From NCBI RefSeq assembly GCF_900113695.1, contig NZ_FOQH01000012.1, positions 1-64,000 of the forward strand: DNA of 64,000 nucleotides. Direction: 5' to 3'. A program made the position numbers and the translations under genes. Under the pieces are notes generated by a model, which did no database searches, was not told the origin of the DNA, and saw only the letters and a program-made list of their open reading frames with translations. This DNA is from Albimonas pacifica. Its GTDB lineage: Bacteria > Pseudomonadota > Alphaproteobacteria > Rhodobacterales > Rhodobacteraceae. How positions within the stretch are numbered: the stretch's first letter is position 1; every line of letters starts with the position of its first letter. Positions 20,585-60,298 of the stretch are shown piece after piece.

Positions 20585-20717
20585 GCCGGGTCGGGGGCTC
20601 GGGTCCATGGGCGCCCTGCGGGCGGGCTTGGCGGCGTCGCGTGGGGGGCGAGGGCGTGAGGGATCTGCGGGCGTGGGAGCCTCCGGCGGGCTCCTGACTC
20701 ACCCAAGAACAAGCCCC

Positions 20718-20879
20718 GCGCCTGTTCTCCGGATCCGTCTCTCGCTTCGGCTGCCTGAGCGACTCGCCCCCTCCGGTCAAGGACGAGCCCGCCTTCGGCG
20801 GGTCGCTTCGCGATCCTTGACCGGAGGGGGCGAGTCGCTCTGACGGCGCCTGCGAGAGACGGCTCCGGAGAACAGGCGC
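20718..20879. repeat. Long palindromic element, copy A
   Basis: A 162-bp imperfect inverted repeat with ends GCGCCTGTTCTCC and GGAGAACAGGCGC. Its inner stem is a perfect 27-bp match (20757-20783 with 20814-20840). The 30-nt loop holds two small hairpins, CCCGCC-TTC-GGCGGG and TCGC-TTC-GCGA. Left flank: CCTCCGGCGGGCTCCTGACTC; a box GGCGCCCTGCGGGCGGGC starts 108 nt upstream (20610). It fills the rluC-HAD gap. The same element occurs at 36336, 56831 (inverted) and 60059. Confidence 0.85.
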
Positions 20880-20981
20880 TTCGCGAGGGCCGCAGGGCGG
20901 TCGCGCGCGGGGCGGGCGGCTGGACAGGCGGGGGCTGGGGGGCTAGGCCTCGGCGCGTCCGTCACGTCTTCGGAGCTTCCC

Positions 20982-34010: not shown

Positions 34011-34066
34011 GGGGGGCTCGGAACGGGGGGCTCGGAACGGGGGGCTCGGAACGGGGGGCTCAGAAC
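34011..34066. repeat. 14-bp tandem repeat, four units
   Basis: Four direct copies of GGGGGGCTCGGAAC stand end to end (34011, 34025, 34039, 34053); the last differs at one base (CTCAGAAC). The last unit covers the stop codon of the RTX gene, which reads TGA on the minus strand from 34062. A G-run in each unit makes it prone to slippage. It lies between the RTX and VOC genes. Confidence 0.85.
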
Positions 34067-34983
34067 AGGAAGTCGGCCTTGCGCAGGGCATCCTCGGCGA
34101 AGACCTCGACGGCGTTTCCGTCGAGCGTCGCCCGCCAGGCGCCCTCCGCGGTCTCGGCGATCGTCAGGTCCCGCCAGCGCACGTCGAGCGCGCGCAGGTC
34201 GAGCCGGTCGCCCTCGGCGCGCGAGAAGTCCTCGATCACGTCCTCGCCCCAGTTGCGGCCGTGCACGAAGCGGTCGGGGCCGGCGCCGCCGACCAGCAGG
34301 TCGTCGCCGCGCCCGCCCTCGATCACGTCGCGCCCGGCGCCGGCGTAGACCCGGTCGTCGCCGCCGCCGGCCTCGATCCGGTCGCGGCCGCCGTCCTCGT
34401 AGATGCGGTCGTCGCCCCGGCCGGCGACCATCCGGTCGCGCCCGGCGCCGCCGTAGAGATAGTCGTCGCCGCCGCCGCCGAAGAGCGCGTCGCGCCCCTC
34501 GTCGCCGTAGAGCGCGTCGTTCCCGCCGCCGCCGCGCAGCAGGTCGTCGCCGCGGCCGCCGCTCAGCGAATCCTGACCGCCCCGACCGACGGCGCGGTCG
34601 TTCCCGTCGAAGCCGATCAGCCGGTCGATGCCCGAGCCGCCGAACATCACGTCGTCGCCGGTTCCGGCCGAGATCGTCTGCCAGTCGCCGTCGCCGAGAT
34701 GCATCCAGTCGTCGCCTTCGCCGCCGTAGATCGTGTCGCGGTCGGCGCCGCCGTAGAGGCGGTCGTCCCCGAGGCCGCCGGTCAGCGTATCCTCGCCCGC
34801 GCCGCCGTAGAGCTCGTCGGCGCCCTCCAGCCCGCCGAGGCGGTCGTCGCCGCCGGCGCCGTAGACCAGGTCGTCGCCCTCGGTCCCGCCGTAGTCGTCG
34901 TCGCCGTCGCCAAGGGCGACGGGGTCCAGCAGGGCCTCGGCGACGGTCGTCTCGAAAGGGGAGGGGGGGAACGCTCGGGCCAT
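34060..34983 (-). CDS. Small RTX (haemolysin-type calcium-binding) protein
   Basis: A 307-aa protein made almost entirely of RTX nonapeptide repeats (GGxGxDxUx), for example YGGAGEDTLTGGLGDDRLYG and LFGGGGDDYLYGGAGRDRM. About residues 25-235 are repeats, and a ~70-residue C-terminal domain with ENV-type FVHGRNWGEDVIEDFSRAEG follows, ending in DFLF, typical of type I secretion signals. There is no enzymatic domain. I start at ATG 34983. No type I exporter genes are nearby. Confidence 0.85.
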   Translation of the reverse strand: MARAFPPSPFETTVAEALLDPVALGDGDDDYGGTEGDDLVYGAGGDDRLGGLEGADELYGGAGEDTLTGGLGDDRLYGGADRDTIYGGEGDDWMHLGDGDWQTISAGTGDDVMFGGSGIDRLIGFDGNDRAVGRGGQDSLSGGRGDDLLRGGGGNDALYGDEGRDALFGGGGDDYLYGGAGRDRMVAGRGDDRIYEDGGRDRIEAGGGDDRVYAGAGRDVIEGGRGDDLLVGGAGPDRFVHGRNWGEDVIEDFSRAEGDRLDLRALDVRWRDLTIAETAEGAWRATLDGNAVEVFAEDALRKADFLF

Positions 34984-35149: not shown

Positions 35150-36497
<1,348 letters not shown>

Positions 36498-36599
36498 TTC
36501 GCGGCGACCGCCCTGGGGGGGCGGGCGGCGCGCGGGGCGGCGGGGCGAGTTGACAGCTGTCGACGCTGCAACGCCGCCGCGCCGGGCGTTGCGCCCGCG

Positions 36600-51871: not shown

Positions 51872-51889
51872 GGCGCCTTGCGGGCGGGC
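51872..51889 (+). repeat. Solo flanking box of the palindrome family
   Basis: GGCGCCTTGCGGGCGGGC matches the box that starts 96-110 nt left of palindromes A, B and D (GGCGCCCTGCGGGCGGGC, GGCGCTCTGCGGGCGGGC). No palindrome follows here; within 150 nt the dctP gene begins. It could be a relic, or the box could be an independent GC-rich repeat. TATAAA at 51988 may be the -10 of the TRAP operon. Confidence 0.4.
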
Positions 51890-56141: not shown

Positions 56142-56762
56142 TCAGGGACAGTCGGCGGAGGCCAGCGCCTCCGCCGCCGGATCCGTCCAGCGCACCAGCA
56201 GCCGGCGGGGCAGGGCCTGCGCTTTCGGCCCGCGGGCGCGGTAGCCGGGGGTCAGGATCTCCAGCTCGCGGTAGGCCTCGCGCCGGTCCGTCGGCAGCGG
56301 ATAGCGCGGATCGGCGCCGTTCGAGGCGAACACCCCGGGGTTGGAGAAATCCGAGGACACCAGCCGCCACACCGCCTCCGCCGTCGCCCAGACCACCTCG
56401 GCCGAGGTCTCGGCCCCGGCGCGCCGGCAGATCCGCGTCTCCGGCCCCAGCGCCTCGCGCAGCCCCGCGAGCAGGGCCTCGGCGTCGCCCGGCGCGATCT
56501 CCCGCCGGCGCTTTTCGAACAGCACCTGCCGCAGGCCGTCCCGGTCGAGCTGGAAGATCGCCCGGAACCGCATCCCCGCCAGCTCCACGTCCGGCGCCAC
56601 GAGCGCGCCCTGCAGGCCGCCGCCGAACTCCAGCCCGGTCTCGACCGCCTCCGGCATGATCTCGCGCAGCGCGGGGGCGTCCATTCCCCAGCGCGCCTCC
56701 GCCCAGTCCGCCGACGCCGCTCCGGGCGCCCAGATCATCGCTGCCAACGCAAGCCACCGCAT
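56142..56762 (-). CDS. Hypothetical exported protein
   Basis: A 206-aa protein I do not recognise. It has a signal peptide (MRWLALAAMIWAPGAASA) and a mature part with few Cys (GPETRICRRAGAE, ALASADCP). I start at MRWLALAA; an in-frame ATG 14 codons upstream lacks the signal-peptide shape. It converges on the PEP-mutase-family gene, with only 7 nt between the stops. Confidence 0.7.
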   Translation of the reverse strand: MRWLALAAMIWAPGAASADWAEARWGMDAPALREIMPEAVETGLEFGGGLQGALVAPDVELAGMRFRAIFQLDRDGLRQVLFEKRRREIAPGDAEALLAGLREALGPETRICRRAGAETSAEVVWATAEAVWRLVSSDFSNPGVFASNGADPRYPLPTDRREAYRELEILTPGYRARGPKAQALPRRLLVRWTDPAAEALASADCP

Positions 56763-56830
56763 CCCCCGCAGATGGCCCGCGCCCCCGCCCGCCGCAAGCG
56801 CCATGGCGCCCCGCCGGCCCCGGGCCGGGA

Positions 56831-56994
56831 GCGCCTGTTCTCCGGAGCCGTCCGTCGCGGATGCCGATCAGAGCGACTCGCCCGTGGGGGTCAAGGATCG
56901 CGAAGCGACCCGCGCTTGCGCGGGCTTGTCCTTGACCCCCACGGGCGAGTCGCTCAGGCATCAGACGCGATGGACGGCTCCGGAGAACAGGCGC
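56831..56994. repeat. Long palindromic element, copy C (inverted)
   Basis: A 164-bp inverted repeat in the 448-nt gap between the hypothetical gene and xdhC, in the opposite orientation to copies A, B and D, as shown by the right flank TTGTTCTTGGGTGAGTTC. Its inner stem 56871-56897 / 56929-56955 is a perfect 27-bp match. The loop hairpins are CGCGAAGCGA and CCCGCGC-TT-GCGCGGG. Outer ends are GCGCCTGTTCTCCGGA and TCCGGAGAACAGGCGC. The rest of the gap shows no gene. Confidence 0.85.
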
Positions 56995-57210
56995 GGCCTT
57001 GTTCTTGGGTGAGTTCCCGAGCCCCCCTTCCGGCCCCCAGCGGCCGCCCGCGCGCAGCGCGCCCGCCGAGCGAGCCCCGCCCCGGGCGCAGCCGTCCCCG
57101 ATTCCGTGAGGCCGCACTGGCGCGACCCCGCCCCTCGCCCTTATGTAGACGGCAGAGGCCCTCCGCCCCGCGCGGGCCCCCCTCCGCCCCCGAACCCCCG
57201 GGAGGACGCC

Positions 57211-59935: not shown

Positions 59936-60058
59936 GGCGCGCTCCGCAGGCGCTCTGCGGGCGGGCCTGGCTCCGTCGCGAAGGCGGGCGCGCGGGCGCC
60001 CGGAGGTCCGGGCGCGGCAGCCTCCGGCGGGCTCCCGACTCACCAAAGAACAGGCCCC

Positions 60059-60221
60059 GCGCCTGATCTTCGGACCCGTCTCTCGCCGATGGATGCCTGA
60101 GCGACTCGCCCGAAGGGGTCAAGGACAAGCCGTGCAAGCGCGGTCGCTGCGCGATCCTTGACCCCTTCGCACGAGTCGCTCTTTCCGGCATCCGCGAGAG
60201 ACGGCTCCGAAGAACAGGCGC
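60059..60221. repeat. Long palindromic element, copy D
   Basis: A 163-bp inverted repeat in the 363-nt gap between the fusion gene and trmO, same orientation as A and B. Its inner stem 60099-60125 / 60155-60181 pairs at 25 of 27 positions. Outer ends are GCGCCTGATCTTCGGA and TCCGAAGAACAGGCGC. The loop has CCGTG-CAAG-CGCGG, closed by a T-G wobble. The left flank CCTCCGGCGGGCTCCCGACTC is almost identical to that of copy A, and the box starts at 59949. Confidence 0.85.
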
Positions 60222-60298
60222 TTTGCGGGGGCCGGCGGGCGTCGCGCCGGGGCGCCGGGGGCGGGCGTCGCCGCGGGGCGGGTCAGGTGGGGGGCGGG

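Follow-up and report, generated by a model that had tools for sequence, protein, structure and literature searches.

In this study, the four palindromes noticed in the window (the 64,000-nucleotide stretch of Albimonas pacifica DNA analysed here) were found to belong to a family of hairpins in the intergenic DNA of Albimonas and its relatives that seems not to have been described before. The reading that we prefer, with a probability of about 0.4, is that they are dispersed copies of a non-autonomous DNA element built on a hairpin module active in single-stranded form, in the manner of a plasmid single-strand origin (sso), and whose strand matters at replication. The module would be a host-recognised structure for single-strand initiation or priming, like a plasmid sso or a Frpo-type hairpin, and on chromosomes it would have spread as a miniature element. 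Its polarity might arise from the exposure of the module on one strand of the fork, either through strand-biased insertion or through a strand-dependent effect under selection, and some old copies, such as the one between betB and betA, may have been kept by selection on structure.

The palindromes at 20718-20879, 36336-36497, 56831-56994 and 60059-60221 were recovered with a family profile HMM (palindromic part), and in all four the outer ends, the stem and the loop with two small hairpins agreed with the original prediction. Copies 1, 2 and 4 lie on the plus strand and copy 3 on the minus strand. Copy 1 with its flanks folded with a z of -13.5, and 0 of 200 shuffles were equally good. Moreover, the conserved unit exceeds the palindrome, giving an element of up to ~320 bp, with the following features in the window:

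20602..20916, plus strand: copy 1, full element (palindrome 20718-20879, head motif 20610-20627, core 20775-20822; HMM)
36231..36512, plus strand: copy 2, full element (palindrome 36336-36497, head motif 36239-36256, core 36394-36440; HMM)
51872..51889, plus strand: solitary head motif GGCGCCTTGCGGGCGGGC, rest of the element absent (repeat families D7 and D11)
56787..57028, minus strand: copy 3, without the standard head (palindrome 56831-56994; HMM positions 86-325)
59943..60266, plus strand: copy 4, full element (palindrome 60059-60221; HMM)

The architecture of this long form, called type A, was derived from an alignment of 78 distinct copies, which are all those with complete flanks among 90 loci. 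Most copies start with the 5' head GGCGCCCTGCGGGCGGGC, followed by a spacer, a 5' hairpin (for example GGAGCC-TCCGGC-GGGCTCC), the leader ACTCACC..AAGAACAAG (in full TGACTCACCCAAGAACAAG), the palindrome and a GC-rich, loosely conserved 3' tail. The AAGAACA of the leader repeats the GAGAACA of the 3' arm, so the 5' arm could, as judged from the letters, pair with either. The head motif is commoner than the core in A. pacifica (177 against 133) and stands alone at one site of the sister species; the idea that it is a mere part of the element was therefore rejected. The stretch around the solitary head motif of the window (51872-51889) is gapped or unalike in the alignment with the sister species. 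Closely spaced pairs of divergent head motifs, 46-86 bp from each other, were also seen in A. pacifica (C24:115289/115338, C31:439877/439923, C36:321381/321465) and the sister species (C16:108025/108111), possibly a second, independent hairpin repeat. Elsewhere in the window, positions 34241-34915 hold an array of 27-nt repeats within the minus-strand reading frame 34060-34983; by eye, we take them to be possibly calcium-binding repeats of RTX type.

Genome-wide copy number was counted as exact matches to a 15-base core pattern, GGTCAAGGAYNAGCC, with the reversed pattern as control. The pattern occurred 133 times in the 6.0 Mb genome of A. pacifica (reversed control 0) and 133 times in its sister species, with 0 exact matches in the third Albimonas congener and 0-2, similar to their controls, in the other 58 relatives. 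The expectation that four copies in the window implied many in the genome was thus borne out, the four being a small sample of the family. All four window sites were occupied at the corresponding place in the sister species, in which element sites were placed partly by best-match lists. At the site of copy 1, the third congener, otherwise checked by exact patterns and BLAST, has a shorter gap and lacks the element, so that the contrast of filled and empty syntenic gaps proposed earlier as a check was indeed found. When 0.4 Mb of the sister species was compared with 0.4 Mb of A. pacifica, five sites were shared and three unshared among those flanked by alignment, the others being unplaceable. 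The unshared sites were C12:642.8k of the sister species and C36:24.5k and C36:384.8k of A. pacifica, with the head alone retained in the sister species at C36:24.5k. Furthermore, partial copies occur in Albimonas, and contig 2 of Albimonas sp. CAU 1670 also carries the element. All 78 Albimonas copies examined are intergenic.

Relatives of the element were found well beyond the genus. BLAST with copy 2, scoring two candidates per genome, gave matches in 36 of 394 family genomes; these were long in six (A. pacifica itself, its sister species, G022, G279, G345 and G408) and mostly confined to the core in the others. The long relatives have the leader and the outer stem in common, and their inner stems differ yet stay complementary. 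One further element of the long type lies on an Acuticoccus plasmid. The inner core of type A also belongs to a shorter element, type B, in other genera of the family. This element consists of a small hairpin 1 (AGGCGGTTCAGGGGCAG..CTGCCCTGAACGCGCC), a linker with TCGAG and a large stem GCGAGTCG..CGACTC around the core, the stem enclosing two hairpins. In 13 type B sequences from 11 genomes, 94.9% of the pair cells were standard, compared with 79.7% after shuffling, and both-side changes were seen in 24 of 38 pairs, compared with 9.3 in shuffled sets (0 of 500 shuffles as high). In slid controls, standard pair cells dropped to 30.6-44.4%. The conservation of the core in this set is partly selected, because the set had been collected through its similarity to the core of Albimonas. 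A type B covariance model (E <= 0.001, strict filters, at most 21 candidates scored) matched 26 of 149 genomes; the 123 sampled genomes without type B indicate that it is inessential. With 150 candidates scored, expansions appeared in G017 (41 matches), G006 (24) and G076 (25, two of them the opposite strand of copies already counted). Among the matches listed for named genomes, the exact core was present in Sulfitobacter, Roseibaca, Roseivivax, Roseicyclus, Maritalea and a Rhodovarius MAG. Two further observations were made at type B loci: in G006, G017 and G076, the outer base of the large hairpin often holds the stop codon of the opposite-strand gene, and one element lies ~140 bp from an RNase P RNA gene (L188, G255 C4 near 1,581,600).

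The same structure was found on very small plasmids. Full-length matches to the type B model (41-58 bits) were obtained on 7 of 15 plasmid loci searched, namely on pWP4-W18-CRE-03_1, pYQ39, pSYM4 (1,304 bp), pW17-3-c (1,220 bp), pNL15, pTRACA42 and pPFS. The core alone was matched on pBBR1, a Citrobacter koseri plasmid and a large Bradyrhizobium plasmid, with weaker matches elsewhere. The plasmids sharing the type B structure measure 1.2-2.7 kb, and BLAST with the pWP4 element returned 39 plasmid records, all but four under 5.1 kb. On pTRACA42 the element overlaps annotated hypothetical ORFs. The replication proteins of the element plasmids belong to the Pfam families RepL (three), HTH_36 (pSYM4 and the C. 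koseri plasmid, with the match of pBBR1 below the cut-off), Rep3, Rep_1 and Rep_OBD. Conserved hairpins outside rep were thus present on replicons with five unrelated Rep types, as is the case for sso. Such sharing by plasmids with unrelated Reps suggests host factors, as for sso (PMC4595007), and the module would be host-recognised because the host machinery alone is common to the plasmids that bear it. The element further resembles the sso of rolling-circle plasmids (PMC4595007) in having several hairpins, in being non-coding and in that orientation matters. This likeness is one of structure and distribution; unlike sso, the element occurs in many chromosomal copies and lies antisense to rep on the plasmids with Rep_1 and Rep_OBD proteins.

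The element lies on the rep strand in pSYM4, pW17-3-c, pWP4 and pPFS and opposite rep in pBBR1, the C. koseri plasmid, pYQ39, pTRACA42 and pNL15, the antisense orientation being found on both plasmids with Rep_1 and Rep_OBD proteins. If the displaced strand in the latter two is rep-sense, the strand exposed there would be the complement of the one exposed on the chromosomal lagging-strand template. This cuts against the simplest model of lagging-strand priming; misfiring may instead be avoided, or the element may act on a leading-strand template at a stalled fork. In addition, on four large alphaproteobacterial plasmids a same-strand ORF follows the right half of the core at a distance of 44-56 bp. 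This arrangement resembles that of Frpo/ssi, the single-strand promoters of conjugative leading regions (PMC11541004). A hairpin carrying a TTGAC sequence is a further likeness to Frpo/ssi; no -10 box was found by eye, and neither an oriT nor a leading region was located.

Further evidence comes from the orientation of the chromosomal copies, with replication direction inferred from GC skew and contig uniformity. Within a contig, type B copies point nearly all one way and follow the G-rich strand. Where a contig bears at least two copies of the type B expansions, 74 of the 77 copies have the orientation of the majority: 35/37 in G017, 22/23 in G006 and 17/17 in G076, values matched by 0, 29 and 45 of 200,000 random draws, respectively. 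After removal of five duplicates and with 15 Albimonas loci set aside, the skew of the flanks was positive, that is, G-rich in the orientation of the element, at 35 of 36 type B loci, which are not independent because ten of them are the bet locus; the single exception was the Rhodovarius MAG. Flank skew was also positive at 25 of 30 expansion loci (10/10, 7/10 and 8/10), and among twenty 20-kb stretches it was positive in 15, negative in 4 and 0.000 in one. The coding strand was rejected as the cause of the polarity, since the 20-kb skew did not follow gene orientation in 51 blocks from Albimonas, G006 and G076 (rho -0.24, p 0.087). The G-rich strand is conventionally taken to have the sense of the leading strand, which makes it the template of the lagging strand too. 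Type A, the family of the four window copies, is only moderately polarised: flank skew was positive for 58 of 78 Albimonas copies (50 of 78 at third codon positions) and for 9 of 15 in the sister species, and 69 of 99 copies lay on the majority strand of their contig (p 0.011). The polarity of the family lends some substance to the site for chromosome organisation that the original prediction had suggested without evidence, but the likeness to small plasmids argues in the first place for a hairpin module of single-stranded DNA. A bolder proposal, which we regard as improbable, is that Rhodobacteraceae chromosomes carry dispersed, replication-polarised initiation sites of the minimal-plasmid kind, recognised on single strands by the host primase or RNA polymerase, which would serve repriming or whose orientation would be kept to prevent misfiring on the lagging-strand template.

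From the bursts, the presence and absence at syntenic sites and the mosaicism, we infer that the element is mobile. Among the explanations other than an sso-like module, the one that survives best, though we think it unlikely, is a repeat of the REP/REPIN type that a Y1 transposase, either RAYT or IS200-like, moves on the template of the lagging strand, with polarity as a by-product and no initiation function. IS200-type elements are reported to target the lagging strand (PMC6006769), and polarity with intergenic dispersal would fit single-strand insertion (PMC6006769, PMC3116915). Like REP, REPIN and BIME sequences with their RAYT (TnpA-REP), the element is interspersed, intergenic, palindromic and mosaic, with many copies per genome, and its presumed substrate is single-stranded DNA, as for those repeats (PMC6006769, PMC3116915). 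It differs in size (~140-320 bp against units of 21-65 nt), in the presence of its core on small plasmids and in the near-strict polarity of type B. A GT[AG]G foot on a short palindrome is a known feature of REP sequences (PMC6006769). Furthermore, Y1_Tnp (PF01797) gave no match in the 3 Albimonas genomes (one of them element-free) and a match in 1 of 8 other genomes, G017, which makes one positive among 11 genomes, ten of them element carriers; as a control, the same search gave matches in 5 of 14 named genomes. Two elements of G017, at separate places, have an IS200-family transposase frame as a neighbour, ~130 bp away. At both (L294 on C8 and L295 on C3), the IS200-like sequence lacks the middle of its profile and interrupts the tail of the element, and it is accordingly discounted as the mobiliser; as an autonomous partner it was rejected, since comparison of copies puts the insertion inside the tail. 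Rather than a resident Y1 gene flanked by repeats, as expected of RAYT, the sole Y1 sequence sits inside element copies. L294 and L295 lie at different places, as if element and IS200 insertion had been copied together.

In comparison with MITEs, the element is likewise non-autonomous and multi-copy, and in G017 it has terminal inverted repeats (5' motif in 15/15 distinct loci, 3' motif in 10/15). No related transposon was found, no target-site duplication was seen by eye at the G017 ends, and inverted ends are not general in Albimonas, where most copies lack them. The Albimonas intergenic flanks are too diverged for a clean insertion junction. The earlier suggestion of a MITE-like or REP-like element holds in that this is a genome-wide, intergenic repeat family of such a kind with no entry in Rfam; no linked transposase was found.

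A few sites are occupied across genera, and they bear on how the copies persist. In the window, 7 of 8 proteins flanking the copies gave Pfam matches to unrelated families (the protein at 56145-56738 gave no Pfam match), in keeping with the statement that each copy separates unrelated genes; as a general rule this fails, because in several genera the element lies between betB and betA. This type B element is common to two Roseibaca and six Sulfitobacter assemblies, two MAGs and G076 (11 aligned sequences), and in G279 the gap is occupied by a type A element instead. NCBIfam confirmed betB and betA in L197 and betB in L181, and the element was co-directional with betB in both loci examined. Although the bet flanks are ~66-90% identical, the structure has been retained: 10 of 27 pairs show changes on both sides, against 0 one-sided changes. 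Further shared sites lie ahead of a gene named cobM by eye and between Lrp-like and P450-like genes. Such places, together with the near-strict polarity, would suit a host functional site tied to replication (repriming, fork restart or segregation) that is spread and maintained by selection and is not mobile. We consider this somewhat less probable still than Y1-driven movement: the distribution is patchy, with 26 of 149 genomes matched and no exact core in the third Albimonas congener, copy number varies widely among genera, and copies also lie on small plasmids.

Gene contexts were obtained with a simple codon model of our own (the Albimonas model being used for G076 and G006) and, for G017, from a prediction trained on the longest ORFs. 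The Albimonas copies occupied 27 convergent, 43 tandem and 8 divergent gaps (n = 78), and the best-match loci of G017, G006 and G076 together occupied 17 convergent, 12 tandem and 1 divergent (n = 30). Convergent gaps were thus enriched over Albimonas gaps of 60-250 bp, of which 58 were convergent, 173 tandem and 48 divergent, and the 3' end of many copies abuts the stop codon of the opposite-strand gene. Both features would be consistent with transcriptional punctuation, either a bidirectional terminator or a 3'-end protection element between genes. This explanation appears doubtful, more so than a host replication site, since it gives no reason to expect polarity relative to replication, no U-tract was noted 3' of the hairpin, and the plasmid copies lie upstream of rep; promoter avoidance alone would deplete divergent gaps as well.

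The level at which pairing is maintained was judged from the kinds of mismatch. Among 4754 Albimonas pair cells there were 11 G.T, 30 A.C and 33 other mismatches, besides one fixed G.T column of 77 cells, and in type B 5 cells with a standard change on one side stood against 57 with changes on both sides. If a plus-strand RNA were under selection, G.U would be favoured; maintenance, or copying, of the pairing at the DNA level is therefore the likelier case. The wholesale swaps of inner stems with few intermediates would also be expected of module exchange, or of correction between the arms by template switching. Against Rfam 15, no family reached the gathering threshold for the element (the window and 18 loci gave one tRNA and one RNase P RNA), and a permissive scan of copy 1 gave sub-threshold matches alone, which upholds, as far as Rfam is concerned, the remark that no named family has this structure. 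A structured RNA transcribed through the element, cis-regulatory or small, is very improbable despite the deep covariation of type B and the conserved, co-directional betB-betA place. The structured RNA of the original prediction is disfavoured, if made from the plus strand, by A.C being at least as common as G.T among non-Watson-Crick cells, which leaves room for a minus-strand RNA. No match to the element was found in phage records and viral contigs, and no description of the family was recognised in the literature listings, of which the first rows were consulted for broad searches, much subscription literature lying outside their scope.

In conclusion, this family links three subjects that are usually treated separately: interspersed chromosomal palindromes, a non-coding module that several of the smallest plasmids share, and replication direction. 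Even if it were a mere mobile repeat, it would be one without an Rfam model, with strong covariation, with a copy contrast of 133/133/0 within Albimonas and with a betB-betA copy across genera. If the polarity reflects an activity on single-stranded DNA, the family would be a natural read-out of the strand exposed at the fork, and its plasmid copies would be a candidate broad-host-range single-strand origin.
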